A DNA stretch of 64,000 nucleotides from a virus. The notes beneath the pieces are model-generated. The model ran no database searches and was not told the DNA's origin. It saw only the letters and a program-made list of their open reading frames with translations. Numbering within the stretch: the stretch's first letter is position 1; every line of letters begins with the position of its first letter. The stretch covers positions 30,022 to 94,021 of the IMG/VR virus record IMGVR_UViG_3300030329_003334; one strand, written 5' to 3'. Below are positions 15,503 through 31,707 of the stretch, piece by piece. The position numbers and the translations under genes were made by a program.

Positions 15503-15577
15503 CAGAAAAAGAGGAGTTTCGTCCTCTAGGAATGAACTTAATCGTCCTTTAGGCCTCTGTTATCTCCTCAGTTTCTG
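15503..15577 (-). ncRNA. Structured intergenic RNA element between ssb and primase
   Basis: The 114-base gap contains a closing helix CAGAAA/TTTCTG (15503-15508 with 15572-15577) stacked, across a 2x2 internal loop, on GAGGAG/CTCCTC (15511-15516 with 15564-15569). Inside, 15523-15531 pairs with 15545-15553 (7 of 9). AGAGGA (15510-15515) can instead pair with TCCTCT (15522-15527), so the element may switch between two folds. No reading frame explains it. It would lie in the leftward transcript just before the primase start. Confidence 0.5.
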
Positions 15578-15594
15578 AATCAAGGTGGATCTTT

Positions 15595-16176
15595 CTAGAA
15601 TGGCAAGTCATCTGAATCAGTAGAATTTACTTCTACTTCTGCTTTAGCGCTTTCTTTTTCCATTTTATCATTATTTCCAATCTTTAATCCAGTTGGATTA
15701 GTTGTCATAATTTCGATAAAAGGACAGAAATTAGGTAAAGCAGCATAATCTCTGTAATTATATATAACTTTTAATCTTATAAGAGTACCTTGATATTTGG
15801 TTCCCATAAAATTAATTAAATTATCACATAATTCATTGAAAGTACTTCCGCTAACTGAAAAAGAGTTTGGATCTACAAATTTTGTACAGATATGCTTAAT
15901 TCTAATAAGCATATTATTTACTCTTCTTTTTGTAGCTTCTTCTTTACTTTCGCCTTCTTTCTTATTCACTCTCTCAGGATCTACATCCCATTCTAAGTGT
16001 TTAAGTTTGTTCCCTTCTAGGTCACTAAAACTAAAACATAAATAAGTACTACCATTGCTAGCAGTTTCTTTACTAATGTTTTCTAAAGTACAGTTATCGT
16101 TTATTCCTACAGGAATACTTGATACTGAACTTTGTTCTTGCACTTGCGTGCTCTGATTAATTTCATACATACTCAT
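15595..16176 (-). CDS. ssb: Single-stranded DNA-binding protein
   Basis: 193 residues ending in DSDDLPF, the acidic tip used by bacterial and phage SSBs to recruit partner proteins. The body has the length and strand-rich pattern of an OB-fold. The linker before the tip is acidic and low-complexity. It lies between the 228-residue unknown protein and the primase, inside the replication unit. A nearby second start (Met3) is possible. It coats single-stranded DNA at the fork and during recombination. Confidence 0.7.
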   Translation of the reverse strand: MSMYEINQSTQVQEQSSVSSIPVGINDNCTLENISKETASNGSTYLCFSFSDLEGNKLKHLEWDVDPERVNKKEGESKEEATKRRVNNMLIRIKHICTKFVDPNSFSVSGSTFNELCDNLINFMGTKYQGTLIRLKVIYNYRDYAALPNFCPFIEIMTTNPTGLKIGNNDKMEKESAKAEVEVNSTDSDDLPF

Positions 16177-16208
16177 AATAATTTAAATTTAAATTGGTTA
16201 CTAAAATA

Positions 16209-16895
16209 CTATTTTAATTCGAAATTAGCAAATGCATCATCTTCTTTTTCAACATTGCTATCTTCTTGATTATCAGACTGTTGTACTTCTTGAGAATCAT
16301 CTGTATGATTTTCATTAGTACTATTGTCATGAATTTCACTACTAGAAGACGTAGAAACAACTTCACCTCCAGATTTTTCTATAGCTTGATGTAAATCATT
16401 TATAGTATCTTGAGCTTTTTGTTCATTACTTTTTTCACCAGGAGGATGTTCTTTTATATAAGCTACTGGTACATCTTCTGCTTCTTCTTCTATATTTTCT
16501 TCCCACCCATCATTATCTTCTTCAACTTTAACAATTTTATAAAATACATATTCAGGATAAGTTGTACTATATATAGCTTCTTCACATACATACATATCTT
16601 CTTCTCCAGTTCCTGGTAATCCCATATATGATCTTATATCTCTGTCATGAGGTATATTTTTAATATATCCTTGCTTATTTACAGCTACACCATCTCCATC
16701 AGGAGCAGTATATATATGTAAATCTTTTTCGCCTTCACTTGGGTATGCTATACCTATTCTGTTATTATTAGCGTCTATTTTTAATCTAGACATTAGTGCT
16801 GGTGATAGTCTCATTTGGCCTTCGCCTTTTAATTTTATAGCTAAACTATCTCCGAAAGAATTCAATCTTTCTCTTCTTTTTCCAATTAGTTTCAT
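16209..16895 (-). CDS. Unknown replication-unit protein with acidic tail
   Basis: 228 residues, not recognised. The N terminus is basic (KLIGKRRERLNSF) and the middle is strand-rich with YPSEGEKDLHIYTAPDGDGVAVN. From about residue 125 the chain becomes very acidic, then Ser/Asn/Gln-rich, and ends DAFANFELK. The acidic C terminus could contact DNA-binding partners. It lies between a 47-residue membrane protein gene and ssb, so a replication accessory role is possible but not shown. Confidence 0.6.
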   Translation of the reverse strand: MKLIGKRRERLNSFGDSLAIKLKGEGQMRLSPALMSRLKIDANNNRIGIAYPSEGEKDLHIYTAPDGDGVAVNKQGYIKNIPHDRDIRSYMGLPGTGEEDMYVCEEAIYSTTYPEYVFYKIVKVEEDNDGWEENIEEEAEDVPVAYIKEHPPGEKSNEQKAQDTINDLHQAIEKSGGEVVSTSSSSEIHDNSTNENHTDDSQEVQQSDNQEDSNVEKEDDAFANFELK

Positions 16896-16897
16896 AT

Positions 16898-17041
16898 TTA
16901 TTTATTTTTATTTGGTTTATCAAAATTTTTCATGTTTTTCATGAATTTTTTATTATCTTCTATTTTAAGACCTTGCTCTAAAGCATATTTTGCTAGTAAT
17001 ATAGTTCCTATTATTACTAGTATTAAAATTAATATATACAT
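16898..17041 (-). CDS. Tiny single-pass membrane protein (47 aa)
   Basis: Starts with ATG at 17041 and ends with TAA at 16898-16900. Residues 2-17 (YILILILVIIGTILLA) form one transmembrane helix, followed by a basic Lys/Asn-rich tail. It fills the gap between the Sak4-like gene and the 228-residue gene with only 2 bases on each side, which supports it being real. Function unknown. Confidence 0.6.
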   Translation of the reverse strand: MYILILILVIIGTILLAKYALEQGLKIEDNKKFMKNMKNFDKPNKNK

Positions 17042-17043
17042 AA

Positions 17044-17724
17044 TTAGTTATAATATTCGTTTATAGTTTTAATTACATTACTTATATCATTTGGAATCTT
17101 AAATTCAAACATATCTCTAGGAGATTTTGCAGTTGTAGTTCCATCAGATTGAGTTATAAAATTATATATTCTCTCACCGTCAGCATTTAAAGACACGTCT
17201 GTAAATAATACTACAGTAAACATACCCTCCATAGTTATTACATTATCTACTAATTTGCCTACAGTTTTAAATTTAAGTCTTCTACTACCTGATAAATCTG
17301 TAGATTGCTCAGCATGCCCAATCATTACAAAATTAATATCTTCTCTCATATTTTTACCAGCTGTAGCGATCTCCCATGCATGTAATCCTATCTCTGTAAA
17401 TTTATCAAATCCACGTTCATTGGCCCTACGCATGTATTCATTAGCCATTATATATTGAAAATCATCTATAATTACATTCTTAATATGAGGCATATTTTCA
17501 TCTATATGTTTCATAGTTTGTACTATAGTAGAAGCTCTATCAGATTCTATATAATTACCTTGAGGATTTTCTTTAGATAATTTAGTATAATTACCTTTCC
17601 ATCCTCTAAATGGCATAGGCTTATTACCTACATTTACAATGAATGTTTCTTTAGGGTCTAAGTTTTCTAAACTAGTGGACTTCCCTGAACCACTTTCTCC
17701 GATAATTAAAATTTCTTGTGACAT
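17044..17724 (-). CDS. Sak4-like RecA-fold ATPase (phage recombinase)
   Basis: 226 residues. Walker A GESGSGKST at 9-17 sits right at the N terminus, and Walker B is VIIDDFQYI at 84-92, followed by MRRANERG and a GHAEQST segment like the sensor region of Sak4/AAA_24 proteins. Such proteins are short RecA-core ATPases that anneal or exchange strands together with phage SSB. The ssb gene, RecE-like nuclease and RusA-like resolvase are downstream in the same unit. The DnaB gene ends 1 base upstream. Confidence 0.7.
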   Translation of the reverse strand: MSQEILIIGESGSGKSTSLENLDPKETFIVNVGNKPMPFRGWKGNYTKLSKENPQGNYIESDRASTIVQTMKHIDENMPHIKNVIIDDFQYIMANEYMRRANERGFDKFTEIGLHAWEIATAGKNMREDINFVMIGHAEQSTDLSGSRRLKFKTVGKLVDNVITMEGMFTVVLFTDVSLNADGERIYNFITQSDGTTTAKSPRDMFEFKIPNDISNVIKTINEYYN

Positions 17725-17725
17725 T

Positions 17726-18769
17726 TTATTCTTTTTTGTTATTATTTATTTTATCTATATCTTCTATTTTTAACTGACCTTTTTCATCAGGTATATCATA
17801 TTCATCTACTCTATTATATTTTAATATGTCTACCATACTCATTACTATTCCAGATTCTCCATCTCTATTTTTTAAAATATGCCAATATATCATTGGTTGT
17901 GATGGTTTTTCAGGATTAATAACAGGTAAATGATGTGGGCCATATGTTTGCATATTAAGCATATATGGTTTATGTGTAATTAAAACATAATCTGATCCAT
18001 GAAATACAGCATCTGATCCAAAAATATCTTTTTTCATAGGATAATTTTGCATAGGATTAGTCATTCTATCAGATTTTTCTATCTCTCTATTTAACTGACT
18101 TATAACTATAAATATACATTTAATTTCCTTTTTAGCTAGCATCATCATTCTATATAATTTTACTAAACTTTCTCTTTCACTGTCTCCAGCTTTATGTTTA
18201 GTTAATAAAGTGTGATCTATTAATATTACAGTTCCGTATTCTTCATCTTGAGTTTTAGTTTTTCTCATCTCATGAAAATGCATAATAGTATGATACATCT
18301 CTTCTACTGTACCAGGAATATCTACATAATATATACTATATTTTCTAGATATACTATTTACTACATTCTCTGCTCGTTGATACATTTCATCATCTAAGTC
18401 TTCATTGCTAGAATATAACTGACCTACAGTTCTATATAATTTATGAGATATTTTTCTACCTACTTGTTTCATTGCTAGCATCTCAAAGTTAAATGATAAT
18501 ACTGAAAAATTTTCATCAGGATTGTTATCAAAAAGACTAGTTTCTAAATCATTTGCTATACTTGATTTACCAGAACCAGACATTCCTGCTATTGTCATTA
18601 TCACGTTCCAATCTAATCCACCCATAGTTGCTTTATTAAACTTATCCCATCTAGTTGCTAAAGAATGTACTAATCCTTTTCTACGTTGATCTATGTATTC
18701 TAAGATTTCTTTTCCTGCATTTCTAATATGAGAATAAGTTAATGTTTTTTTAGATGACTTTTCCTCCAT
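17726..18769 (-). CDS. dnaB: DnaB-type replicative helicase
   Basis: 347 residues. The RecA-like helicase domain has Walker A GMSGSGKSS at 62-70, Walker B VILIDHTLL at about 177-185, and the SQLNRE motif typical of DnaB at about 223-228. It is shorter than cellular DnaB (about 450-470) and lacks most of the N-terminal primase-contact domain. It overlaps the upstream 220-residue gene by 20 bases, so the two are probably translated together; that neighbour could be its loader. Unwinds DNA at the fork. Confidence 0.8.
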   Translation of the reverse strand: MEEKSSKKTLTYSHIRNAGKEILEYIDQRRKGLVHSLATRWDKFNKATMGGLDWNVIMTIAGMSGSGKSSIANDLETSLFDNNPDENFSVLSFNFEMLAMKQVGRKISHKLYRTVGQLYSSNEDLDDEMYQRAENVVNSISRKYSIYYVDIPGTVEEMYHTIMHFHEMRKTKTQDEEYGTVILIDHTLLTKHKAGDSERESLVKLYRMMMLAKKEIKCIFIVISQLNREIEKSDRMTNPMQNYPMKKDIFGSDAVFHGSDYVLITHKPYMLNMQTYGPHHLPVINPEKPSQPMIYWHILKNRDGESGIVMSMVDILKYNRVDEYDIPDEKGQLKIEDIDKINNNKKE

Positions 18770-19412
18770 AATCTATGTTGTTGTTGTTATTATTATTTGT
18801 ATTTTTCATGTGCTCTTGTACATCTATATATACTTCATCTCTTAAATAATTTTTAAGAGTTTTAATATACATCATTTTTCCGCTTTTTTTCAAATTATCT
18901 ACATAATAAGATAAAAGTTCTAACATTTTTTGATGCTTAAGTTTATTAGATTTTAAAATGCCTATATATATTTCTTTGCATAATTTTTTCTGTAATCTTA
19001 AACTTGATTCTGCTCCATTAGATCTCAAAGTGCTTAAAGGATATGCTTCATAAAATTCTTCAAATTCTTTAATATACTTTTCTAATGCTAAATCGTTTAG
19101 ATCATCATCTCCTAATAGTAAATTATCAGCTTTAGCGTCTGCAAAACTATCTACCATAGATTTAATAAATCTTATTCCTTTAGCGGTTGGCTTAAATCCA
19201 TCCAAATTAACTTCTTTGGCATCTCTTCTCACCATTATATATTTTGCTTTGACTAAAGGAGCAACATCTTTCATTGTTATTGTATCTATTTCTTTATAAG
19301 TACGTAATAAATATACTTTATTATATACATAACAATATATTATAAAATAATCTTTTAGACTTAAGTTATTATCTATTAATATGTTGATAAAAGGTTTTCC
19401 AAATGGTATCAT
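18750..19412 (-). CDS. Possible replication initiation or helicase-loading protein
   Basis: 220 residues without a motif I can name. The first 110 residues resemble a winged-helix arrangement (LSLKDYFIIYCYVYNK, then KDVAPLVKAKYIMVRR and GIRFIKSM). The C-terminal half is helical, like phage replication proteins that contact DnaB. Its 3' end overlaps the dnaB start by 20 bases and ends in an Asn-rich run. The loader assignment comes from position and fold guess only. Confidence 0.5.
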   Translation of the reverse strand: MIPFGKPFINILIDNNLSLKDYFIIYCYVYNKVYLLRTYKEIDTITMKDVAPLVKAKYIMVRRDAKEVNLDGFKPTAKGIRFIKSMVDSFADAKADNLLLGDDDLNDLALEKYIKEFEEFYEAYPLSTLRSNGAESSLRLQKKLCKEIYIGILKSNKLKHQKMLELLSYYVDNLKKSGKMMYIKTLKNYLRDEVYIDVQEHMKNTNNNNNNNIDYGGKVI

Positions 19413-19645
19413 TTTCCTTTTTTAATTTCTGCTTCCCATTCAGCCCAAGTTTCATGCATTTGTTCTGCTTGTTCCGCTGTTATAAATTGTTTTTCTTTTA
19501 AATGTATTTTATGATCATGTTCTTCTTCAAAAAATATTTCTTTTGTTTTAGTAGCTTTATATATATTCCACAATTTTCCTCTAAAAAATATTCTTTTAAT
19601 CTTTTCCTTCTTCTGGTTTGCTAGCTTTTTTAACTGTTGTATCAT
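19409..19645 (-). CDS. Unknown 78-aa basic/acidic protein
   Basis: Starts basic (QQLKKLANQKKEKIKRIFFRG) and continues with an acidic, aromatic second half (HDHKIHLKEKQFITAEQAEQMHETWAEWEAEI, split here only for description). It overlaps both neighbours: 50 bases with the DUF1599-like gene and 4 bases with the downstream gene. No family recognised. Confidence 0.5.
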   Translation of the reverse strand: MIQQLKKLANQKKEKIKRIFFRGKLWNIYKATKTKEIFFEEEHDHKIHLKEKQFITAEQAEQMHETWAEWEAEIKKGK

Positions 19646-19934
19646 AATTTGTAAAGTTTAGTGAAATTAATAATAAAATTATATATCCTGCTAGATCCCA
19701 TAATGAATCTGCTGTCTTACTTGTAATTCCTCCATTTTGTAATCTATGTAGTTTATCATCTATTCTACAACATAATCCAAATTGTTTAGGAGTCATTGCT
19801 TCCATATTCGATTTTGTTCCAAATATAGGATCTCCTTGAGTAGCAGAATCACCATAGTCTTGATTTTTAGCAGTAAGTAAATTAATTAATTGTTCACCTA
19901 CTTTTTTAATTTTCCATTGTGTGTGTTTTTCCAT
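19596..19934 (-). CDS. DUF1599-like (nucleotide modification-associated domain 1) protein
   Basis: 112 residues. The pattern NQDYGDSAT, FGLCCRIDDKLHRLQNGG, then ADSLWDLAGYIILLL matches DUF1599/Nmad1, a small MazG-like helical family found in phages and linked to nucleotide metabolism or base modification. The acidic residues in RIDDK and DLAGY are kept. It is the first gene after a structured gap and heads the helicase segment of the leftward unit. The exact substrate cannot be read from the sequence. Confidence 0.7.
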   Translation of the reverse strand: MEKHTQWKIKKVGEQLINLLTAKNQDYGDSATQGDPIFGTKSNMEAMTPKQFGLCCRIDDKLHRLQNGGITSKTADSLWDLAGYIILLLISLNFTNYDTTVKKASKPEEGKD

Positions 19935-19948
19935 AATTTTAATTTTAA

Positions 19949-20060
19949 AGGGCGAGGTCGGCCAAGTATTTATGGTGGCAGTCTCCCTATCATATAAACC
20001 ACATTTGACATTTTTAAAGCTAGCTCGTTAGACTCTAAAATACTCAACCTGTTTGGCCCT
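19949..20060 (-). ncRNA. Pseudoknotted intergenic RNA element
   Basis: Fills the 125-base gap between the SF2 helicase and DUF1599-like genes. Helices: AGGGC/GCCCT (19949-19953 with 20056-20060), AGGT/ACCT (19955-19958 with 20047-20050) and AGTATT/AATACT (19965-19970 with 20039-20044). The next pair, 19964 with 20045, is A-C on + but U-G on the - transcript. Inside, GTGG (19975-19978) pairs with CCAC (19999-20002) and AGTCT (19980-19984) with AGACT (20030-20034), crossing each other as an H-type pseudoknot. Confidence 0.6.
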
Positions 20061-21238
20061 TATGTTAATATTTCATTTAATGTTTCTATCCATTCACAGT
20101 TATAATCATTTTGAGTTCTCTTTCGTACCCATTTAACTTCCTGAGTACCACGTACATAGAGATTTATATACAAAGCTTGTTTACCTTCTATCATTCTTAA
20201 TACTCTACCTCTTCTTTGTATATTATCTAATGCTTTAGAACTACCTGCAGCACATATTCCAAGAGAACATTCTGGTACATTTAAACCAGCATTTAATGCT
20301 TTAACAGAACTTATTAATCTTACTTTAGTTCTTCCATCACCGAATTCTTTGAGAGCTCGTTTCTTGTCTTTAAGTTTCATTTTAGAATGAAAAGTTATAC
20401 ACTCTTCTCCTAAAATATCTTGTAGATTCTCCGCAAAGTTAATACTTTGACTAAAAACAAGACCCTTTCTGTTAGGAAATTTATTAACAATTTTCTTGAT
20501 TAATTCTACTTTATTTACAGCATTATAGCAAATATTTTTCCTTTTTTGCATTGCCATATAAAATATATTTGCCCATTTAGCTTCTTCTTTATCTTTAGAA
20601 TTCTTTAATTTTGTAGCATTCTCAAAAGCTACAAATCTACCTCCTAATTCATTAGTTGCTTTATTAAATAATGTATCAAATCTCTTATATTCTTTAACTT
20701 CTTCTTCGGTAAAACTTACTCCTAAATTATATACTTTATATGGTGATACTAATTCTAGATCTAATGCATCTAAAGTATCTGTTTTTTTAATTGTAGGCGC
20801 AAATCCTTTTAGATATTCTTTATATTCATCATTTTCTGGTTCTGTAGCTGTTAAACAATATATATTATCAAAACTATTATTTTCGTATAAGTTTCTATAT
20901 TCATAAGATAAAGTAGTATGTACTTCATCTACTATTAATATAGAACAGGTATAATTTTCCCATTTGTATACAGTTTGTATACATTGTATATCTATTCGAT
21001 CTTTATATTTAGATAATTTCCATTTTTTTAATTCATTTGGCCATTCATTATCTCTTAAATTTTCAGTAGGAACAACTATTAAAGCCTTATTATATATATC
21101 TTTAGATAAAATATGATCAATTGCCATTAATCCCATTTTAGTTTTACCTATACCTGTAGCTGCTATAGAAGTTCCTTTACAATTATTATTTATCCACGCA
21201 TCTATATGTTCTTTTTGTTCTTTATCTTTATTATTCAT
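20060..21238 (-). CDS. Superfamily 2 helicase (UvsW/DEAD-like)
   Basis: 392 residues. Motif I AATGIGKT at 26-33, motif II IVDEVHT (DEVH) at about 99-105, motif III LTATEP, then a second RecA domain with GLVFSQS and the motif VI-like NIQRRGRVLRM. The set is complete, so it should be an active ATP-dependent DNA or RNA translocase. Phage homologues of this type (UvsW) remodel branched intermediates and help replication restart. It overlaps the next upstream gene by 4 bases. The structured element follows immediately after its start region on the other side. Confidence 0.8.
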   Translation of the reverse strand: MNNKDKEQKEHIDAWINNNCKGTSIAATGIGKTKMGLMAIDHILSKDIYNKALIVVPTENLRDNEWPNELKKWKLSKYKDRIDIQCIQTVYKWENYTCSILIVDEVHTTLSYEYRNLYENNSFDNIYCLTATEPENDEYKEYLKGFAPTIKKTDTLDALDLELVSPYKVYNLGVSFTEEEVKEYKRFDTLFNKATNELGGRFVAFENATKLKNSKDKEEAKWANIFYMAMQKRKNICYNAVNKVELIKKIVNKFPNRKGLVFSQSINFAENLQDILGEECITFHSKMKLKDKKRALKEFGDGRTKVRLISSVKALNAGLNVPECSLGICAAGSSKALDNIQRRGRVLRMIEGKQALYINLYVRGTQEVKWVRKRTQNDYNCEWIETLNEILT

Positions 21239-21486
21239 ATTAAAATATTTATAATTTTTCTAAATCTTGCCATTACTTGTGTAAAAGTTTTGGAAGATTT
21301 ATTATAATACATTGGACTTAGAGGTACAAACTGATGCTTTTCCATTGTTTCATTTACTCCCTTTTGTAATCTTTTTTTATTAGGACCTTCAGCTAAAATA
21401 ACTTCTTCTATATCAGGCATAAACCTATCGTGAGGCCCTCTGTCATTACCAAAAAGCTGTTTTTTCTTTTTTGTTTGTTTTTTCAT
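21235..21486 (-). CDS. Unknown basic protein (83 aa)
   Basis: Very basic N terminus (KKQTKKKKQLFGNDRGP), then PDIEEVILAEGPNKKRLQ and an aromatic C terminus. No family recognised. It overlaps the SF2 helicase start by 4 bases, which suggests translational coupling and possibly a nucleic-acid-binding partner. Its start lies 18 bases after a kissing-hairpin element that ends in a U-rich stretch, so its expression may be controlled there. Confidence 0.5.
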   Translation of the reverse strand: MKKQTKKKKQLFGNDRGPHDRFMPDIEEVILAEGPNKKRLQKGVNETMEKHQFVPLSPMYYNKSSKTFTQVMARFRKIINILI

Positions 21487-21503
21487 GTTGTGTGTAATTT
21501 AAT

Positions 21504-21576
21504 AAAAGAGCGGGTAAGCGCTCTTTTGGTACTACGACTGATAAAACAAGTATTAGTTCTAGCTTACCCTAGAACT
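21504..21576 (-). ncRNA. Two hairpins with complementary six-base loops (kissing loops)
   Basis: Hairpin A: AAAAGAGCG/CGCTCTTTT (21504-21512 with 21519-21527), loop GGTAAG (21513-21518). Hairpin B: AGTTCTAG/CTAGAACT (21555-21562 with 21569-21576), loop CTTACC (21563-21568). Both stems are perfect (9 and 8 bp) and the two loops are exact reverse complements over all six bases. In the leftward transcript, hairpin B comes first and hairpin A ends in CUCUUUUAUU, like an intrinsic terminator, 18 bases before the start codon at 21486. Confidence 0.7.
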
Positions 21577-21584
21577 GTAAAAAG

Positions 21585-21661
21585 GAAAGAAAGAGAAATT
21601 GCATAACTGTATGTATATTACTAACGCAATATTTCATATACTATCTAGTTTTCTCTCTTTC
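21585..21661 (-). ncRNA. Pseudoknotted RNA element upstream of the kissing hairpins
   Basis: Closing helix GAAAGA + GAGAAA (21585-21590, 21593-21598) with TTTCTC + TCTTTC (21650-21661), broken by a 2-base bulge. Inside, TTGC (21599-21602) pairs with GCAA (21626-21629), and GTATAT (21613-21618) pairs with ATATAC (21636-21641), crossing to form an H-type pseudoknot. No open frame covers it. It is separated from hairpin B by 8 bases. Confidence 0.5.
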
Positions 21662-21671
21662 TAACCTATTA

Positions 21672-21707
21672 ATTAAAGGCAGAAATCATGACATAACGAC
21701 CTTTAAT
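21672..21707 (-). terminator. Hairpin at the 3' end of the 82-aa gene
   Basis: ATTAAAGG/CCTTTAAT (21672-21679 with 21700-21707), 8 bp perfect, with a 20-base loop containing TCATGA. It overlaps the stop codon of the leftward gene ending at 21703. There is no strong U-run, so it may stabilise a 3' end or mark processing rather than terminate. Confidence 0.4.
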
Positions 21708-22196: not shown

Positions 22197-22218
22197 AATT
22201 TTAAATATTAAATAAAAA

Positions 22219-22345: not shown

Positions 22346-22356
22346 ATTTATATTAT

Positions 22357-24946: not shown

Positions 24947-24957
24947 GTGAAATATTT

Positions 24958-25251: not shown

Positions 25252-25547
25252 TATTTTGTTTTTAAAACATCTAATAAATAACATTCAGAATCATTATGTA
25301 AATAATTATATATATCTATTATTTTATATTTACCTCTTTCATTAAATGTTATAGTATTACCTATAGATAGCACAGGGCCTCCTTCATACGCTATTTCTAT
25401 TATTTTTCCTTCTTCTTTATCATCATATTTTATGGATGAAGTTGGATCATCAGAATAAATAATTATTCCTCCTTCGTCTTCAGGTAAAAACTTAAATGTA
25501 CGTCTTTGTTTGTCTTTATTTAATATATTTATTACTCTTCTCTTCAT
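25251..25547 (-). CDS. Unknown small beta-rich protein (98 aa)
   Basis: Begins MKRRVINILNKDKQRRTF; the start at 25547 is chosen because a promoter-like element (25556-25586) covers the alternative upstream TTG and ATG codons. KFLPEDEGGIIIYSDDPTS and GNTITFNERGKYKIIDIYNYL suggest a small beta fold. Function unknown. It is probably translated from a very short leader. Confidence 0.5.
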   Translation of the reverse strand: MKRRVINILNKDKQRRTFKFLPEDEGGIIIYSDDPTSSIKYDDKEEGKIIEIAYEGGPVLSIGNTITFNERGKYKIIDIYNYLHNDSECYLLDVLKTK

Positions 25548-25555
25548 ATTAAATG

Positions 25556-25586
25556 CAAACATACAAAAAATAATATACATTAGCAA
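25556..25586 (-). promoter_or_regulatory. Bacteroidota-type promoter inside the leftward unit
   Basis: On the - strand, TTG (25584-25586) is followed after 20 bases by TATGTTTG (25556-25563), matching the TTTG / TAnnTTTG pattern at the -7 box. The predicted start of transcription would fall within a few bases of the ATG at 25547, giving a nearly leaderless mRNA. Confidence 0.45.
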
Positions 25587-25589
25587 CTA

Positions 25590-25823
25590 TTACATATTTT
25601 TTTTCAACATAATAGTGTGTATATCATGGCATCTTCTGTTAGTTTTAAATGGAGATTTCATTGTATTATAAGATTCAAATTTATATAAAGGTACACTTAA
25701 TTCTATTTCTCCACTATATTTAAAATAGTTATCAAAATTAATTACAGTACTTTTATATAATTCATTTAATCTTTGTTCTGTTTTTTGTTCTTCTATAAAA
25801 TTTTTTATTATATCTTCGTCCAT
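25590..25823 (-). CDS. Unknown protein (77 aa)
   Basis: Starts MDEDIIKNFIEEQKTEQRLNEL, then an aromatic strand-like middle (NFDNYFKYSGEIELSVPLYKF) and a basic end. It overlaps the upstream 61-residue gene by 16 bases. No family recognised. Confidence 0.5.
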   Translation of the reverse strand: MDEDIIKNFIEEQKTEQRLNELYKSTVINFDNYFKYSGEIELSVPLYKFESYNTMKSPFKTNRRCHDIHTIMLKKNM

Positions 25824-25993
25824 AAGTCTTCTTCTTTTAAATTATATTTTTTCATTAAGTTTATTAATTTTCTCTTTAATGTACTTTTTTTAGCACTTGG
25901 AACATCAAACGGACTATCCATTACAACTCTTTTCATTCTAGTTATTGTTTTAGATAGATTTTTACAAATTTCTATTGCAGATTCTTTTGACAT
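25808..25993 (-). CDS. Unknown small basic protein (61 aa)
   Basis: Mostly helical and basic (MSKESAIEICKNLSKTITRMKR, KKSTLKRKLINLMKKYNL). Overlaps the next gene by 16 bases. The size and charge allow a nucleic-acid-binding role, but nothing specific is visible. Confidence 0.5.
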   Translation of the reverse strand: MSKESAIEICKNLSKTITRMKRVVMDSPFDVPSAKKSTLKRKLINLMKKYNLKEEDLWTKI

Positions 25994-26020
25994 AATTATT
26001 TGGTTTTAGTTAATAAAAAA

Positions 26021-26070
26021 AGAACGGAGCTACAAATTGGCTAGTCGTAATACTTGTAATACTCCGTTCT
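26021..26070 (-). ncRNA. Intergenic hairpin element (9-bp stem plus inner helix)
   Basis: AGAACGGAG (26021-26029) pairs perfectly with CTCCGTTCT (26062-26070); inside, TACAA (26031-26035) pairs with TTGTA (26054-26058), leaving an 18-base loop. It fills the gap between the 159-residue and 61-residue leftward genes and no frame covers it. There is no U-tract on the - strand side, so a simple terminator is unlikely. Confidence 0.5.
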
Positions 26071-26098
26071 CTCTCCTCGTACAACACACAACAAGAAA

Positions 26099-26578
26099 TC
26101 ATTTAAAGACTTTATTAAATTTATCAGAACAATCTTCTAATTCATTATCTATAATATCTCTTATTCTCATTAATATAGAAATTAAAGAATTGTCTGTTAA
26201 ATCTTTTAAATTTATATTAAAATTAGATAGCTTAATCTTTTCATCTTTATATTTGTCTTTCTTATTAATATATTTATCTATTTGTTTAAGTTTATCTACA
26301 AAATCACTAGGATTATCTACATCAGCTAAAGATTTTAATAATCCATCAGCATTAGAAGAATATTCATCCTTATTATTATCAGGTAACTTAATTTCTACAT
26401 TAATAGATATTTTATTAATACTAGAATTCTTATCCATATTAATAATAGCTTCACATGCATTATTAATAGTTTCCTTATAGTTTCTAAATTTATCACAAAG
26501 TTCTACTATATTCTTTGTTTGATTAAACTTAGCTTTTACTATATCATAATTTTTAACTGTATCTTTTTTACTAGCCAT
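26099..26578 (-). CDS. Unknown helical protein (159 aa)
   Basis: Long helices with Lys/Asp/Asn-rich sequence; contains KINKISINVEIKLPDNNKDEY as a likely strand segment in the middle, and ends with LEDCSDKFNKVFK. No catalytic motif seen. The gene stands alone between two small structured gaps. A coiled-coil or scaffold-like role is possible. Confidence 0.5.
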   Translation of the reverse strand: MASKKDTVKNYDIVKAKFNQTKNIVELCDKFRNYKETINNACEAIINMDKNSSINKISINVEIKLPDNNKDEYSSNADGLLKSLADVDNPSDFVDKLKQIDKYINKKDKYKDEKIKLSNFNINLKDLTDNSLISILMRIRDIIDNELEDCSDKFNKVFK

Positions 26579-26605
26579 AATATTTATTTTTATACATTTA
26601 TAATA

Positions 26606-27001
26606 TTAGAAATCATTCTTTTTCTCACTTAAATGAGATTCAAAACCTTCTCTATCAACACCATATGCTTGATAGCTGTTTTCTTTTCCATATGCTCTTT
26701 CAAGTATATTTTCGAATAATGCTTTAGTTATTTCAGGTGGAGGTAAATGGTGTGCCATTTGTTCTGTCATTCTATGTACAGTATTTGCATTACCAAATGC
26801 CATGCCTAAAACTAATATATCATTAGCATTTTTTGGATTAACTTTTTTAATTATTTTTTCTATAAGTAAAGATTTACTAATATCTCCTTCTTTTGCACCT
26901 ATTTCATGCATAAATTTAGGTATATCCATAGGATCTAAATTAGTAGGAACAGCTTTTGAGAAATGTTTTTCTTCATGGTCAAAATTAAATTTTATTTCCA
27001 T
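26606..27001 (-). CDS. Unknown protein (131 aa)
   Basis: Begins with a strand-like MEIKFNFDHEEKHF and continues with helices: IGAKEGDISKSLLIEKIIKKV, ILVLGMAFGNANTVHRMTEQMAHHLPP. Two His residues in MAHHLPP and several acidic residues are notable, but no known metal site is complete. It overlaps the upstream gene by 17 bases. Not recognised. Confidence 0.5.
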   Translation of the reverse strand: MEIKFNFDHEEKHFSKAVPTNLDPMDIPKFMHEIGAKEGDISKSLLIEKIIKKVNPKNANDILVLGMAFGNANTVHRMTEQMAHHLPPPEITKALFENILERAYGKENSYQAYGVDREGFESHLSEKKNDF

Positions 27002-27554
27002 CTTTCTTGTTTTTGTTGTTAATATTTATTTCTTCTATCATACTACATATATTTTCATATTCAGAACTATCTATCATACTATCTTCAGATTTCTCTAAAG
27101 TCATTTCAAAATTATTTATAATAATATGACCATGTCCTTTAAATATAGAATAGATATTTTCACCAGGTAATATAACATATGTTGCTGTATGAACTAATTC
27201 ATCTTTTATCTTATACGGAATTACTTCTCTTGTAACTATATCACCAGCTATTTTTGTTCCAATATAATTAAGTGCTTTATCAGGTGGTACTCTTTTCCAA
27301 ACAGGAATGCCTATACTATTTCTAGACTGAAACATTAATCTAGATCTAACTAATCCAAAAGGACAATTAACGCTAACAAAATCTATTAAATAATACTCAA
27401 CTGGTTCTTGATCAGTTTCTTTTGTTATATTAATATATCCTTTTATACCATTAGAACTTTTTATTCTAATGGCTTTAGGATTATCAGATAATCTAACACC
27501 AACTATTTCAATCTCTCTGTCTTCTTTTATAAATTCTACTTCAGTCATCACCAT
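26985..27554 (-). CDS. Unknown beta-rich protein (189 aa)
   Basis: Alternating short strands (IEIVGVRLSDNPKAIRIK, GIKGYINITKETDQEPVEYYLIDF, TATYVILPGENIYSIFKGHGHIIINNFEM). ATG at 27554 or the in-frame ATG at 27548 are both possible starts; both overlap the upstream gene. The Cys in NCPFGLVRS is single. No family recognised; an OB- or barrel-like fold is possible. Confidence 0.5.
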   Translation of the reverse strand: MVMTEVEFIKEDREIEIVGVRLSDNPKAIRIKSSNGIKGYINITKETDQEPVEYYLIDFVSVNCPFGLVRSRLMFQSRNSIGIPVWKRVPPDKALNYIGTKIAGDIVTREVIPYKIKDELVHTATYVILPGENIYSIFKGHGHIIINNFEMTLEKSEDSMIDSSEYENICSMIEEININNKNKKDGNKI

Positions 27555-27738
27555 ATGCTTTAATTAATTTTAAAAGTTGCTCTGCTACATCTCCATTAAA
27601 TTCTGCATTCTTTCTGATCCAATCTCTGTTTTCTTGTATACACTTTAATAATAACTCTTGATTCTGTATAATTATTTGTAAATATTCTCCAATAATATAA
27701 TCTTTATCAGAGGTTTTCTGTTGTGTTGTTTTGCTCAT
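27541..27738 (-). CDS. Unknown small protein (65 aa)
   Basis: Helical, with YIIGEYLQIIIQNQELLLKCIQ and an acidic end. Overlaps the downstream gene by 14 bases and the upstream one by 32 bases. Nothing identifies a function. Confidence 0.45.
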   Translation of the reverse strand: MSKTTQQKTSDKDYIIGEYLQIIIQNQELLLKCIQENRDWIRKNAEFNGDVAEQLLKLIKAYGDD

Positions 27739-27916
27739 TTTTCAATAGTTTTTTATAATCATTAATATAGTCTAATAAGTGTTTTGCATATGTAGTATAA
27801 TACATTGCGCCTTCAAAGTGAAATCTCACTTGTTCATCTTCTATTGCGGCTTCATACGCTTCTCTTAAACTTTTTTCTTTTTCCACCAATATACTTACTA
27901 ATTTCATTTTTGCCAT
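27707..27916 (-). CDS. Unknown small helical protein (69 aa)
   Basis: MAKMKLVSILVEKEKSLREA then a helical pair with YYTTYAKHLLDYINDYKKLL. Overlaps the next gene by 32 bases. Part of the run of small leftward genes between 24.9 and 29.3 kb. Confidence 0.45.
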   Translation of the reverse strand: MAKMKLVSILVEKEKSLREAYEAAIEDEQVRFHFEGAMYYTTYAKHLLDYINDYKKLLKNEQNNTTENL

Positions 27917-27918
27917 AT

Positions 27919-28221
27919 CTATTCTTTTTTAATTACTCTATCAAATTTATACCTACCCCAAAAGTTTTTCCTAAATATAATTAAATCATCTATTTTAATC
28001 AATGCAAATTCTCCAAATGTACAATAATAGGTATCACCATTTTCTAATGCAATTGCATAATTTGTATAAGGTTCTTCTATTATCTTATCTATAACTTTGA
28101 GTGTAATTTCTTTATTATATTTAAAATCATTAGCCATTGTTTGGCTATAACTATTATGACTTAGTAACATAAAAACAGTACTAATCAAAGATAGCATTAT
28201 TATTTTTATTATTGCTTTCAT
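27919..28221 (-). CDS. Exported protein with signal peptide (100 aa)
   Basis: The N terminus has a basic start (MKAIIKI), a hydrophobic core (IMLSLISTVFMLL) and a likely cleavage near NSYSQT, so it is probably exported to the periplasm. The mature part has short strands and a Cys in TYYCTFGEFALI. Unlike its neighbours it is not an inner-membrane protein. Function unknown. Confidence 0.55.
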   Translation of the reverse strand: MKAIIKIIMLSLISTVFMLLSHNSYSQTMANDFKYNKEITLKVIDKIIEEPYTNYAIALENGDTYYCTFGEFALIKIDDLIIFRKNFWGRYKFDRVIKKE

Positions 28222-28242
28222 TTTAAATTCATTTAATTGTTA

Positions 28243-28662
28243 TTATTTTACCCATTCTCCTTCTTTTATATCTTTCATCTCTTTAGATATTAATCTAATT
28301 TTATTAGATCTAATTACAGACATTAATGTTTTCTTTAACTCATACATCTTATTTTCTATATCTTCATAGAACTTTGGAGATGATTTCACTACATCAAAAA
28401 TGTGAATATAATATCTACATTTAAGATCATAATTACCAACATGGTAATTTCTAGAACTTATATCTATATTCTTTTGATTATAAGATTTTAAATTTACTTT
28501 TTGAATAAATTTGTATACATCTTTACTTATTTGTAAAGTATATAGTATTTCCATAGCTCCATCTAATAATAATTTATATCTATATCCTTTATTTCTAATA
28601 GTAAACAAATCCTGCGTTATATTTTCTTGAAATATAACTGGCTTTTTAGTTTCCTTTTCCAT
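28243..28662 (-). CDS. Unknown protein (139 aa)
   Basis: Basic, aromatic and mixed helix/strand: FTIRNKGYRYKLLLDGAMEIL and a KCRYYIHIFDVV segment. Only one Cys, no motif. Its start overlaps the end of the upstream 95-residue gene by 17 bases. Confidence 0.45.
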   Translation of the reverse strand: MEKETKKPVIFQENITQDLFTIRNKGYRYKLLLDGAMEILYTLQISKDVYKFIQKVNLKSYNQKNIDISSRNYHVGNYDLKCRYYIHIFDVVKSSPKFYEDIENKMYELKKTLMSVIRSNKIRLISKEMKDIKEGEWVK

Positions 28663-28933
28663 TATTAAATAGTTTAATTATAATTTCTGTTAATATATCT
28701 ATTTTTCCTTCTAATATTTTTATATCTGTTGTAGCTTTATGTCTTTCATTAAGCAATTCATTCTTAGTTGCTTCTAACTCTTTTTGTACATCTATTGTAC
28801 ATGCATTACCTCTTGCTGATGGATAATTTTGTATCATTTCTAATACATCTTCATAGTTTAATATGTCATAATCAGCTTGGCCAGCACCATCATGACCTAT
28901 TTGTATTGAATTTAATATATCTTCTGCTTTCAT
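28646..28933 (-). CDS. Unknown coiled-coil protein (95 aa)
   Basis: N-terminal half is acidic (MKAEDILNSIQIGHDGAGQA). The second half, with ELEATKNELLNERHK and an ILEGKIDILTEIIIKLF stretch, is a heptad-like coiled coil. It likely dimerises. Function unknown. Confidence 0.45.
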   Translation of the reverse strand: MKAEDILNSIQIGHDGAGQADYDILNYEDVLEMIQNYPSARGNACTIDVQKELEATKNELLNERHKATTDIKILEGKIDILTEIIIKLFNNGKGN

Positions 28934-28951
28934 ATCTTTATATTTTAAGTA

Positions 28952-29167
28952 TTATTTAACTTTACATTTATTCTCATCAACACACTTTTCATCCTCTTCT
29001 AAATCCCATATAACTACCATGCCATCTCCTCCTTCACTATCCCAAGTATCTGGATGGTTATCTCTTATTTTCTCTGCTTCTTCCATTGTATCTACATTTG
29101 CTATGAAATATGTACTAACTCCACAACACATACATCCTATTTGCTGTACTAAATATCTTTTCTTCAT
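28952..29167 (-). CDS. Unknown Cys-rich small protein (71 aa)
   Basis: Starts MKKRYLVQQIGCMCCGVSTYFI; the CMCC cluster and a later pair in EKCVDENKCKVK could bind a metal. An acidic middle (DTMEEAEKIRDNHPDTWDSE) separates them. No family recognised. Confidence 0.5.
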   Translation of the reverse strand: MKKRYLVQQIGCMCCGVSTYFIANVDTMEEAEKIRDNHPDTWDSEGGDGMVVIWDLEEDEKCVDENKCKVK

Positions 29168-29185
29168 CTTTTTATATTTTAAATG

Positions 29186-29317
29186 TTAATATAAACTGTA
29201 AAATCCTGATAAATATAAAATGAGAAGAAATATTGATGTTCCTAATACAGATCCCCAAAATCCAACCCAAATTACTATTCCTAATAATTCTAATATTATT
29301 TTTAATATATCTTTCAT
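29186..29317 (-). CDS. Tiny membrane protein (43 aa)
   Basis: ATG at 29317, TAA at 29186-29188. IVIWVGFWGSVLGTSIFLLI (about residues 14-33) is one hydrophobic helix, preceded by MKDILKIILELLG. It sits between the 71-residue gene and the long structured element, where longer frames do not explain the sequence. Confidence 0.5.
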   Translation of the reverse strand: MKDILKIILELLGIVIWVGFWGSVLGTSIFLLILYLSGFYSLY

Positions 29318-29357
29318 AATTTCTTTTTTAAATAAATTGATAAAATTCGCCTTGGGA

Positions 29358-29543
29358 CTACCTCTATTCGCTAGAATAGAAGTAGCGTGCTCGTCAGCAC
29401 TATTTCTGAGTCGCTAAACTCAACCCGATTATACTCCATAAAAGAGAATAACCCACATATCGGACTTCAATGTGTTTATTAATGAGCCTATATATAAGGA
29501 CTCATCCTTAGAGATGCACATGAGGCTTAGCATAAAGCTTTGA
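29358..29543 (-). ncRNA. Hairpin- and pseudoknot-rich intergenic RNA
   Basis: Tandem hairpins: 29358-29369 with 29374-29385 (12 bp; the one + strand mismatch C-A at 29362/29381 becomes G-U on the - transcript), GTGC/GCAC at 29387-29400 (loop TCGTCA), TGAGT/ACTCA at 29407-29422 (loop CGCTAA), and AAGGA/TCCTT at 29496-29509. CCGAT (29425-29429) with ATCGG (29459-29463) is crossed by CACAT (29454-29458) with ATGTG (29470-29474), a pseudoknot. AGCCT/AGGCT (29485-29489 with 29523-29527) encloses the last hairpin. A short GTG-started frame here (61 codons) is probably incidental. Confidence 0.6.
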
Positions 29544-29564
29544 ACCGTTCGCATCGTTTGTTTA

Positions 29565-29831
29565 TTACCTATAAGCTGGGCAATTTTGCGCTGCTTGCCA
29601 ACTAAATCCTCCACAAGAAGATTGAGTTGACATACAAGATGAGAATAAAAACATACATATAATAGCTATTGCTATTGATGTAAGTATTCCATATCCTAAT
29701 CCTTTTTCTATTCTCTTGTGTTTTATATCTCTATCTATTCTTTCATAGTTAGCCCTCATTACTTCTGGATCTGATTTATAAGGACTAATCTTCTGTCCTT
29801 TACTATTTACCATATATTTTATTTCTGCCAT
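29565..29831 (-). CDS. Small membrane-anchored protein (88 aa)
   Basis: A basic cytoplasmic N terminus (YMVNSKGQKISPYKSD) is followed at about residues 48-66 by a hydrophobic helix (LGYGILTSIAIAIICMFLFS). A Cys just after it (SSCMSTQSSCGG) might be a lipid anchor or disulfide; the C-terminal end CGGFSWQAAQNCPAYR is aromatic and Cys-rich, probably periplasmic. Function unknown. Confidence 0.55.
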   Translation of the reverse strand: MAEIKYMVNSKGQKISPYKSDPEVMRANYERIDRDIKHKRIEKGLGYGILTSIAIAIICMFLFSSCMSTQSSCGGFSWQAAQNCPAYR

Positions 29832-29848
29832 GATTTCTAATTTTTTAA

Positions 29849-29926
29849 TTAATAACTATCTCTTTCTTTTGAAGAAGGTAATAGAACTATTGCTAGTCCT
29901 ATCACCACTAATATTTTGAATAACAT
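29849..29926 (-). CDS. Very small membrane peptide (25 aa)
   Basis: ATG at 29926, stop at 29849-29851. MLFKILVVIGLAIVLLP is a single hydrophobic helix, followed by SSKERDSY. Its even spacing between the flanking small genes supports it, but its size makes chance possible. Confidence 0.4.
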   Translation of the reverse strand: MLFKILVVIGLAIVLLPSSKERDSY

Positions 29927-29938
29927 TATAAATTCCCT

Positions 29939-30088
29939 TTACAACTTAGTAGGGATAGAATGCATTCCTATACCTATTATACAAAATGGTAAAATGATAA
30001 CTAAACCATTATGACTTTCATAACCAATACCAAATGCAAATAGTTTTTCAAAACTTGCTTTAAGAACGAACTTTTTTCTAATTTCCAT
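29939..30088 (-). CDS. Small membrane protein (49 aa)
   Basis: ATG at 30088, TAA at 29939-29941. Charged N terminus (MEIRKKFVLKASFEKLFAF) then SHNGLVIILPFCIIGIGM as one hydrophobic helix. Same A-rich leader style as its neighbours. Function unknown. Confidence 0.5.
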   Translation of the reverse strand: MEIRKKFVLKASFEKLFAFGIGYESHNGLVIILPFCIIGIGMHSIPTKL

Positions 30089-30124
30089 GATTTCTAATTT
30101 AAAGTTAATACTGTTAATTGTGTG

Positions 30125-30721
30125 TTAATACCTGTAATGTCCTGTTATTTTCCAATCAAATAAACAATCTTCAATTACTTGTCCATAACCTATGTTATGT
30201 ATCACTTTGTATTCAGAGTGATAGTTGCTTGGTACATTTACTACTATACCAATATGATTTAATCCTCCTCCTAAATCCCAGGTTACAATATCACCTGGTA
30301 AATATTTAGTTGGATTAGGTATTGTCGGCAATGATTCTCCATATCTTTCAAATAATGTTTGAAGATTTGGTACTCTTCTATGATCTATATTTGGATCAAC
30401 TTTATCATCTGTTAATTGATAACAATTTAGACCTATTTCTCTAGTGTACTTAATATCTTCATGTATTAATTGTTGTAAATCAATACCTAATTTCCTATAA
30501 GCTCTTATAACAACGTCAGTACATACACCTATGTTATCTGGTACATCACCCATTGGATAATCTATTGCATAATAAGAACCATCATACTTTATAGTCCAAT
30601 CTTCCAATGATTTCGCTGCTACTGCTAATTTATCATAAAAGCTAGGATTGTCTTGTGCATTTATATTTAAAAATATAAATAAACAATAACTAATAATCAA
30701 TAAAATTCTATTCGTTTTCAT
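30125..30721 (-). CDS. Exported DUF1287-type (NlpC/P60-like) protein
   Basis: 198 residues. A signal peptide (ILLIISYCLFIFLNINAQD, cleavage after about 23) is followed by the DUF1287 pattern: an early Tyr/Asp-rich stretch, GVCTDVVIRAYRKLG with the likely catalytic Cys, DHRRVPNLQTLFER, and PGDIVTWDLGGGLNHIGIVV with a candidate His. Such proteins belong to the NlpC/P60-like peptidase group, so it may act on peptidoglycan in the periplasm, for example in lysis or in blocking a second infection. It overlaps the upstream 53-residue gene by 14 bases. It lies among early-type genes, far from the holin. Confidence 0.65.
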   Translation of the reverse strand: MKTNRILLIISYCLFIFLNINAQDNPSFYDKLAVAAKSLEDWTIKYDGSYYAIDYPMGDVPDNIGVCTDVVIRAYRKLGIDLQQLIHEDIKYTREIGLNCYQLTDDKVDPNIDHRRVPNLQTLFERYGESLPTIPNPTKYLPGDIVTWDLGGGLNHIGIVVNVPSNYHSEYKVIHNIGYGQVIEDCLFDWKITGHYRY

Positions 30722-30869
30722 GATTTCTTTTGTGTTTATCCTTCCTGTTATAAGCCTTCTTACTTTTATGTACTCTAGATGAGGGAGGCCTTATACCTAA
30801 TTCTAGATCAACTCTTCTTCTTATTGCTCTTTTTCTCTTTATACTTAGTCTTTTATTTTCTCGTGCCAT
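30708..30869 (-). CDS. Very basic small protein (53 aa)
   Basis: ATG at 30869, TAG at 30708-30710. Rich in Arg/Lys throughout (SIKRKRAIRRRVDLE, HKSKKAYNRKDKHKR), with PP in the middle. It overlaps the DUF1287-type gene by 14 bases. Likely to bind nucleic acid or ribosomes, but no family recognised. Confidence 0.5.
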   Translation of the reverse strand: MARENKRLSIKRKRAIRRRVDLELGIRPPSSRVHKSKKAYNRKDKHKRNHENE

Positions 30870-30880
30870 GATTTCTTTTT

Positions 30881-30970
30881 TTATTTATCATCATTACATA
30901 CTGAATATACTATACATACTAGTAATAGCATTACTACTGCAGTAATTATAAGTGGTGGTAATATTGTCAT
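30881..30970 (-). CDS. Very small membrane peptide (29 aa)
   Basis: ATG at 30970, TAA at 30881-30883. PLIITAVVMLLLVCIVYSV is a hydrophobic helix ending in CNDDK. Spacing to the neighbouring gene is 11 bases. Confidence 0.4.
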   Translation of the reverse strand: MTILPPLIITAVVMLLLVCIVYSVCNDDK

Positions 30971-31031
30971 ATCATTTAAATATTAATATAAAAAGAACAG
31001 TACTAATAAATCCATGTATCTTAGCGGTATT

Positions 31032-31160
31032 TATAAAGTATTTTCTTGAATTTAATCAAGACGTTTTATACTATTTATATCTACGGTTATAAATAATAAT
31101 CACTGATCAAGTGATATTTAAACTAACTGTTCAATGTCACACCTAAATGTGACTAGTTTA
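31032..31160 (-). ncRNA. Intergenic element with three hairpins
   Basis: CTTGA/TCAAG (31045-31049 with 31056-31060) within an AT-rich stem (TATAAA 31032-31037 with TTTATA 31074-31079, and GTAT/ATAC at 31038-31041/31068-31071); ATCACT/AGTGAT (31099-31104 with 31110-31115, loop GATCA); and GTCACA/TGTGAC (31136-31141 with 31148-31153) stacked directly on TAAACTA/TAGTTTA (31119-31125 with 31154-31160). The last helix overlaps the stop of the upstream leftward gene. Confidence 0.5.
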
Positions 31161-31367
31161 TTTTATTCTTTTGTTTTTATTTGGGATTATATCTGCATAT
31201 GCAAACACAGCAGCTGCAAATAAAAAGATTAATGAGTAGATTAAACAGAAATTACTCTGAAATGACCCACTGTTAGATCCATATAATCCTACATACATTA
31301 ATAAGAATGCCTGTATAACAGACATGATTGATCCTATTATGTATTTGTTCTTACTTATTTTCTTCAT
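31158..31367 (-). CDS. Small two-pass membrane protein (69 aa)
   Basis: Two hydrophobic segments (YIIGSIMSVIQAFLLMYVGLYG at about 8-29 and FCLIYSLIFLFAAAVFAYA at about 40-58) joined by a Ser/Asn-rich loop, with a basic end NKNKRIK. No family recognised. It lies between two strongly structured gaps. Confidence 0.55.
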   Translation of the reverse strand: MKKISKNKYIIGSIMSVIQAFLLMYVGLYGSNSGSFQSNFCLIYSLIFLFAAAVFAYADIIPNKNKRIK

Positions 31368-31402
31368 GATTACTCTTTTTATAGTCTTTTATTCTATTAA
31401 AT

Positions 31403-31493
31403 TAAAGAGTACACAATAGTAATGTCCCACAGAGTTATTACTTCAGTGTGGAACTGTGTTTGTCCTCTCCATTACTATTGTGATTACTCTTTA
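31403..31493 (-). ncRNA. Long-stem RNA element (22 bp with one bulge)
   Basis: TAAAGAGTA (31403-31411) pairs with TACTCTTTA (31485-31493), and CACAATAGTAATG (31412-31424) with CATTACTATTGTG (31470-31482), interrupted by a 2-base bulge AT at 31483-31484. The 45-base interior has CCACA/TGTGG (31427-31431 with 31447-31451) and a competing CACAG/CTGTG (31428-31432 with 31454-31458). No frame covers it and no U-run follows. It precedes the 69-residue membrane protein start. Confidence 0.55.
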
Positions 31494-31539
31494 TGTTATT
31501 GCTATACTATATTAATGTATAGTGTTGTATGTTGTATTA

Positions 31540-31585
31540 AAAAACAAGTGAAATACCCCTGTTGAGAGGTATAACACTCGTTTTT
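31540..31585 (-). terminator. Intrinsic terminator of the first leftward gene
   Basis: On the - strand, a stem of 31540-31550 with 31575-31585 stacks on 31553-31560 with 31565-31572 (loop of 4), followed by TTTTTT. Two + strand C-A mismatches (31546/31579 and 31558/31567) both become G-U pairs in the - transcript, which confirms the direction. It would end transcription of the gene at 31704-31946 before the other leftward genes. Confidence 0.75.
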
Positions 31586-31592
31586 GTTCAGA

Positions 31593-31707
31593 TTAAGCAT
31601 TAACTGTTCGATTCTTAACCAAATCAATGGAAGAACGGATGCATAGCTTCCGTATAATCTGTTATATTCTACTTATAGTAGTAAGAGTTTGAGCAAAGCT
31701 CTCTTAC
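31593..31707 (-). ncRNA. Structured 3' untranslated region of the first leftward gene
   Basis: GTAAGAG/CTCTTAC (31681-31687 with 31701-31707) overlaps the stop codon; CTAC/GTAG at 31669-31681; GGAAG/CTTCC (31629-31633 with 31647-31651) competes with ACGGA/TCCGT (31635-31639 with 31649-31653); and TTAAG/CTTAA (31593-31597 with 31614-31618). There is no open frame of interest. It continues the hairpin chain of the coding region. Confidence 0.45.

Follow-up and report, generated by a model that had tools for sequence, protein, structure and literature searches.

What do the gaps between the leftward genes of a crAss-like phage encode? The question is raised by a window of 64,000 nucleotides, bases 30022–94021 of the 94,021-bp IMG/VR virus record IMGVR_UViG_3300030329_003334, in which compact folds closed by perfect helices lie between the genes of the leftward arm. 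The initial annotation proposed that these are functional leftward RNAs, and this proposal is well supported by a bias towards G-U pairs on the sense strand, by covariation and by restriction of the elements to the replication arm. As judged from the genomes compared below, structured gaps are a clade-wide property of that arm, apparently preserved by selection in the transcript.

The window genome has two divergent gene arms. The leftward or replication arm carries DNA polymerase A, primase, a DnaB-like helicase, a Sak4-like protein and a second helicase, and the rightward arm is structural. The major capsid protein matches the Pfam family Crass_capsid (PF23898, E 6.7e-127), and TerL and the portal protein match PHROGs head-and-packaging families. 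Together with the two-arm organization, these matches identify the virus, on sequence grounds, as a Crassvirales phage. The elements considered here, with z-scores for folding of the leftward strand against dinucleotide shuffles, are as follows.

15503–15577, − strand: element F, between a gene for a single-stranded DNA-binding protein (SSB)-like product (C-terminal DLPF) and the DNA primase gene; closing helix CAGAAA..GAGGAG / CTCCTC..TTTCTG; z −2.3
19949–20060, − strand: weak element upstream of a helicase gene; z −1.3, not significant; no homologue found
21504–21575, − strand: two hairpins with complementary 8-nt loops, likely a kissing-loop pair
21556–21575, − strand: kissing-loop hairpin 1, GTTCTA, loop GGGTAAGC, TAGAAC
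21504–21527, − strand: kissing-loop hairpin 2, AAAAGAGC, loop GCTTACCC, GCTCTTTT
21588–21662, − strand: element B; closing helix 21653–21662/21588–21597, inner hairpin 21636–21641/21613–21618, pseudoknot helix 21626–21630/21598–21602; z −3.8 for the stretch 21504–21707, which also holds the kissing hairpins
22219–22345, − strand: element downstream of DNA polymerase A; 10-bp closing helix 22219–22228/22336–22345, AGAAGAGAGT/ACTCTCTTCT, then a U run; z −2.0
24845–24946, − strand: element after gene 24958–25284 and before gene 24248–24808 in the leftward transcript; closing helix ACTTTAATAGGAT/ATCCTATTAGAGT with a core of 12 Watson–Crick pairs and one G-U, then a U run; z −5.3
26021–26070, − strand: element A; 9-bp closing helix 26021–26029/26062–26070 around the conserved ACAAGTATTACGAC; z −4.3
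29358–29543, − strand: row of hairpins, including the 12-bp CTACTTCTATTC/GAATAGAGGTAG; z −2.3
31032–31160, − strand: row of hairpins; z −3.8
31403–31493, − strand: long hairpin element, TAAAGAGTA/TACTCTTTA then CACAATAGTAATG/CATTACTATTGTG, 9 + 13 bp; z −4.8
31540–31585, − strand: hairpin AAAAACGAGTG..CACTTGTTTTT, paired 31540–31550/31575–31585, then a U run; z −7.2
31589–31661, − strand: element D; closing helix CAGATTA/TAATCTG, conserved CGAACAGTTTAATGC and a variable hairpin; z −1.4 for 31593–31707

The predicted helices are present, and nine of the 11 stretches fold better than their shuffles; for six the margin is large (z −3.8 to −7.2). For 19949–20060 and 31593–31707 the prediction of a compact fold did not hold, the folding being no better than that of shuffled sequence. 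The latter stretch is partly rescued because a conserved relative exists: element D is homologous to a region at about 408–500 of contig L001 (see below), where the variable hairpin, read by eye, still pairs with other letters. As the boundaries of these stretches were picked in the initial annotation, whole gaps provide a fairer and unbiased test. For these the mean z in the window genome is −2.88 in the left arm (n = 7) and −0.70 in the other gaps (n = 6), and the left-arm gaps contain eight helices of at least 10 Watson–Crick pairs compared with 1.4 ± 1.2 in shuffles.

Two further points of the initial annotation were not borne out. Elements were said to occur in nearly every leftward gap, but 16896–17043, 29832–30124 and the first half of 30722–31157 are mostly occupied by small reading frames. 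We note unannotated frames of about 45–60 codons at 16896–17043, 29190–29320, 29832–30124 and 30722–31000, several of them membrane-like or basic. Read directly, the first encodes a 46-residue membrane-type protein, and this gap has a 73% identical counterpart in the relative L092. Crossing helices had been described in four of the gaps; those of at least 6 bp occur in five window gaps compared with 2.9 ± 1.1 in shuffles, so that the class is not enriched and pseudoknots were dropped as a general rule. The cases that are individually supported in the window are the kissing loops at 21504–21575 and element B.

Relatives were collected in several ways. A polymerase scan found L001 and L002, a helicase scan found seven further relatives, a polymerase profile search gave 80 loci with polymerase identities of 43–71%, and the 93-kb relative G001 was reached by scanning with the element B core. 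Several relatives carry metagenome numbers that we take to denote marine samples, and the window phage is likewise regarded as marine. The closest relative, L001, is an 18,547-bp phage contig (NZCU01000020.1), which is also found within a metagenome-assembled genome named 'Nanoarchaeota archaeon' (isolate ARS1172), where it is evidently misbinned. Gaps were called by a simple open-reading-frame rule that missed small genes in the relatives, and homologues are few for any single element of the window.

The clearest evidence that the structures are maintained as RNA comes from this wider set. In 280 non-redundant replication-arm gaps we found 48 helices of at least 12 Watson–Crick pairs, compared with 3.0 ± 1.9 in shuffles (maximum 8 in 20 sets); the other arm has one such helix, compared with 0.3 in shuffles. 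On the sense strand the non-Watson–Crick pairs inside the 48 helices comprise 52 G-U and three A-C, with 1.6 and 2.2 expected from shuffles, which argues that selection acts on the RNA. The initial annotation had used the same argument within the window, where it is weak (seven G-U and two A-C in helices of at least 10 Watson–Crick pairs, the same direction in small numbers); it becomes very strong across the relatives. Neither a chance palindrome nor a hairpin acting at the DNA level is likely, because neither would produce this asymmetry. Raw differences in folding energy between the sense and antisense strands were considered and replaced by the pair count, because the structural arm shows the same offset.

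The same asymmetry bears on the proposal that the elements are DNA-level signals. Phage N4 has hairpin promoters. Signals of this kind, such as hairpin promoters for a virion RNA polymerase, would suit elements confined to the arm that a virion polymerase reportedly reads (PMC10136315), but a 52:3 ratio on the sense strand is not expected of a signal in duplex DNA or of a template-strand hairpin, and we regard this explanation as extremely improbable.

In whole-gap folding the mean z is −2.27 (n = 266) and −2.26 (n = 29) for gaps in the polymerase arm of the relatives, compared with −0.71 (n = 35) for their other arm. Consensus folding of 42 replication-arm gap alignments gave a mean z of −2.91 with 17 of the 42 below −3; many of these alignments are pairwise, making single values unreliable, and the other-arm control consists of four alignments. 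Structure was found as well in the early-arm gaps of the cultured crAss-like Cellulophaga phage phi14:2 (mean z −2.95, n = 12), for which infection RNA-seq has been published (Drobysheva 2021, cited in PMC10136315). Strongly structured gaps in this phage include L125 9568–9636, 15735–15865 and 35422–35504 and record positions 98317–98455 and 99417–99527.

Element B could be followed through three phages: the window, L001 (2244–2328) and G001 (49707–49788). All 21 pairs of the three-helix model are kept in all three phages and five are changed on both sides; one closing pair is A-U, C-G and G-C in turn. When the pairing partner is shifted by 1–3 columns, the fraction of paired cells falls from 100% to 36–66%. 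Based on these three sequences, the covariation appears strong in the closing helix, modest in the inner hairpin and absent from the pseudoknot helix, which does not vary and so gains no support of this kind. Searches of IMG/VR with 17- and 19-mers returned only L001 and G001, a covariance-model search of 35 phage records gave none beyond these two, and among 84,980 species genomes the only match was the L001 contig misbinned as Nanoarchaeota.

The elements were initially described as a family. What they have in common is architecture and position; common descent is not supported by their sequences. In 63 of 86 relatives at most 30 nt follow the polymerase gene, hence no gap, and the 20 gaps of 45–450 nt at this site fall into 14 unrelated sequence clusters, structured on average (mean z −2.35). 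The position of 22219–22345 is thus occupied in relatives by unrelated elements or by none, and at the site of 31540–31585 L001 has a helix of wholly different sequence. The neighbouring genes of element B differ among its three phages; this context was checked individually, as counts of changed gene context include errors of the open-reading-frame rule.

This mobility is relevant to the idea that the elements are gene-specific translational operators or riboswitch-like leaders, as at gene 32 of phage T4. The T4 operator is a pseudoknot that precedes an AU-rich ribosome-binding region in the leader of a replication gene (PMC3014915), and the present sites, ahead of replication genes and followed by an AU-rich leader, resemble it. 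The elements described here, however, are neither conserved with the downstream gene nor specific to it: the element at a given gene is not retained, and element B precedes unrelated genes. An operator role is therefore improbable.

A subset shows much tighter conservation, with the cores of 15503–15577, 26021–26070 and 31589–31661 common to one to three relatives. In element F about 98 nt are identical to L001 save one base, while the flanking coding DNA is about 75% and the proteins about 66% identical, which indicates either recent exchange or very strong constraint; the only further copy found was that in L001. A frameshifted SSB tail reading through 15503–15577 was considered and rejected because L001 lacks one base after the stop codon, so the frame is not kept. 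The core ACAAGTATTACGAC of element A is enclosed by closing stems unrelated to one another in the window, L001, L025 and L026, the last with one base of the core changed. A particularly elaborate element follows the polymerase gene of L024, where perfect helices of 13 and 11 bp cross, and an L024 hairpin presents the same loop GCTTACCC as the window hairpin 21504–21527 on a different stem. TTACGACT can pair with 16S rRNA close to the 1492R primer site, but this match was not conserved among members and was dropped.

Such cores bring us to the main rival explanation, a serious one for elements A, B, D and F: that the elements are small RNAs or decoys that act in trans ('RNA morons'). They would be cut out of the early operon or transcribed together with it, and their target would be a host factor, an mRNA or a defence system. 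The core of element B is almost unchanged across three gene contexts while its closing helix changes by compensation, element F is 98% conserved between phages with flanking genes only about 75% identical, the core of element A recurs in different stems and the elements are patchily present. There is also a precedent in the type III antitoxin mimic of phage PhiTE, a phage RNA that neutralizes a host abortive-infection system (PMC3475682), but no tandem short-pseudoknot repeats of the PhiTE kind were found in 15000–32400. Further points stand against a trans role: the gaps have no dedicated promoters, many elements are plain hairpins without conserved loops, the elements fit between the ribosome footprints of an mRNA, and element B is absent from the bacterial genomes searched save for the misbinned phage contig. 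Overall we consider this explanation somewhat unlikely. In its narrower form, A, B, D and F would be founders of new small-RNA families exchanged among crAss-like phages and acting in trans on a host target. Each would combine a free closing helix with a fixed core, for example as a decoy of a defence or decay factor, parked between replication genes; we judge this unlikely.

The U runs noted above raise the possibility that the early operon is expressed stepwise, with the elements serving as intrinsic terminators or attenuators. In the window, five elements (15503, 22219, 24845, 26021 and 31540) end in or precede a U run, as a terminator does, and among 130 strong stems of the clade TTTT follows directly after 37 (28%, background 8%). 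As 72% of the strong stems have no U run, termination explains a minority at most. Many elements, moreover, enclose large structured loops: 77 of the 130 stems have loops of at most 10 nt, but 53 (about 40%) enclose more than 10 nt, which is above terminator loop size. Essential genes without a detectable promoter lie downstream, and a terminator scan of the leftward strand catches only parts of two window elements. As a class the elements do not appear to be intrinsic terminators, and we consider this reading quite unlikely, although single members may be terminators.

Comparison with known RNA families yielded no assignment. None of 4,227 Rfam families matched the window at gathering score, only implausible sub-threshold matches were obtained at E ≤ 5 for window positions 15000–32400, L001 and L002, and a tRNA search returned none. 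The variable closing helix and invariant core of elements A and B, pseudoknotted in B, would suit small self-cleaving ribozymes that process the transcript without a nuclease, but no Rfam ribozyme matches at E ≤ 5 and no known ribozyme core was recognized by eye, making this very improbable. A hammerhead-like core (CTGAGGA...GAAA) in 15503–15577 was rejected because it lacks a fitting stem II and because CTGAGGAG is already paired as part of the closing helix. The annotation of crAss001 gp96 as a TROVE protein suggested a Y-RNA, an idea that was abandoned when no TROVE gene was found in nine phage records. The elements resemble RNA candidates from comparative genomics (PMC2864571) in being covarying, intergenic and partly metagenomic, and differ in being many per genome, concentrated in one arm of one phage clade and without an Rfam match. 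Searches of the open literature, judged by title and abstract, gave no relevant report of structured or non-coding RNA in crAss-like phages, subscription papers being outside the search; the words 'non-coding' and 'intergenic' do not occur in the review of the order Crassvirales (PMC10136315).

Strong stems begin a median of 13–28 nt after a stop codon and end a median of 26–35 nt before the next start, spacings that would roughly accommodate one ribosome ending translation and another starting it. Almost no promoter of host type occurs in the left arm, where the only match directly before a gene is the following.

25556–25586, − strand: internal host-type promoter, TTG-N20-TATGTTTG, directly before an ATG

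An equivalent lies upstream of the L001 orthologue. For the Crassvirales, early and replication genes are reported to be read by a virion RNA polymerase, and late genes by that of the host (PMC10136315). Because early transcription by a virion polymerase coincides with the restriction of the elements to the replication arm, we favour punctuation of a long early transcript. In our view, the elements may be exchangeable sense-strand RNA cassettes in a long polycistronic early and replication transcript, acting in cis as punctuation for its processing or stability, a tentative reading to which we assign a probability of about 0.45. A host RNase, double-strand-specific or of another kind, would be guided to its cleavage site by the closing helix and the folded interior, or these would block exonucleases; each gene could thereby acquire its own stability within a transcript of few internal promoters, and the ribosome would still have access to the 30 nt of unstructured, AU-rich sequence ahead of the start codon. 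With their conserved cores, A, B, D and F probably have a specific binding partner, a host factor being likelier than the product of a neighbouring gene.

The nearest parallel is phage T7, with five RNase III sites in about 7,000 nt of early mRNA (PMC4858673). In both systems several double-helical elements lie in the intergenic gaps of a long early polycistronic transcript. The present elements differ in that a usually shorter closing helix surrounds a complex or pseudoknotted interior, some cores are strongly conserved and the elements, known here from sequence alone, move between gaps. The T7 type calls for a duplex of about 20 bp or more with few interruptions, a length found in the 20–48-pair stems of some relatives but not in most window helices (9–13 bp).

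Several observations weigh against the punctuation reading. RNase III usually requires a double helix of about two turns, and stems of such length (20–48 pairs) are found in some relatives only, most helices of the window being shorter. Simple punctuation would not call for cores as nearly invariant as those of A, B and F. Some of the stems followed by TTTT may be terminators, and the absence of host-type promoters is uninformative about possible promoters of the virion RNA polymerase.

A separate RNA was noted between the two gene arms of relatives, on the strand of the non-polymerase arm. It covaries, with strong scores at 16 loci (L095:3704–3874(−), L098:7180–7349(−), L016:11232–11395(−) and 13 others) and weaker scores at about seven more. 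Its core of about 170 nt has 39 consensus pairs, of which 14 are changed on both sides in 12 sequences, and it has no Rfam match. A TANNTTTG box lies about 80 nt upstream in L098, L051, L083, L059 and G001; as conservation extends up to this box, the RNA may be about 260 nt long. The corresponding region of the window contains two features.

32098–32310, + strand: candidate inter-arm RNA, separate from the gap elements, behind a TATATTTG box and followed by the rightward-arm promoter
32341–32370, + strand: Bacteroidetes-type promoter before the rightward structural arm, TTG-N19/20-TANNTTTG, of the same type as 25556–25586 (−)

The window candidate is 83% identical to L025/L026, with 43 consensus pairs of which five show double changes. 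It is the positional counterpart of the 16-locus RNA, without detectable sequence similarity to it. Among the genes of the window we also note a MoxR-type AAA ATPase at the end of the replication arm (11701–12843; PF20030, E 4e-22), an adjoining gene for a 457-residue protein of no family (10310–11683) and a DUF1287 protein in the early arm (30125–30721; E 3.4e-58).

Should selected RNA structures punctuate the replication arm as a whole, transcription by the virion polymerase would carry a layer of control at the RNA level. Phages phi14:2 and crAss001 are cultured members with published transcriptomes, which makes the proposal directly testable, and the conserved cores offer concrete targets for finding a bound host factor.

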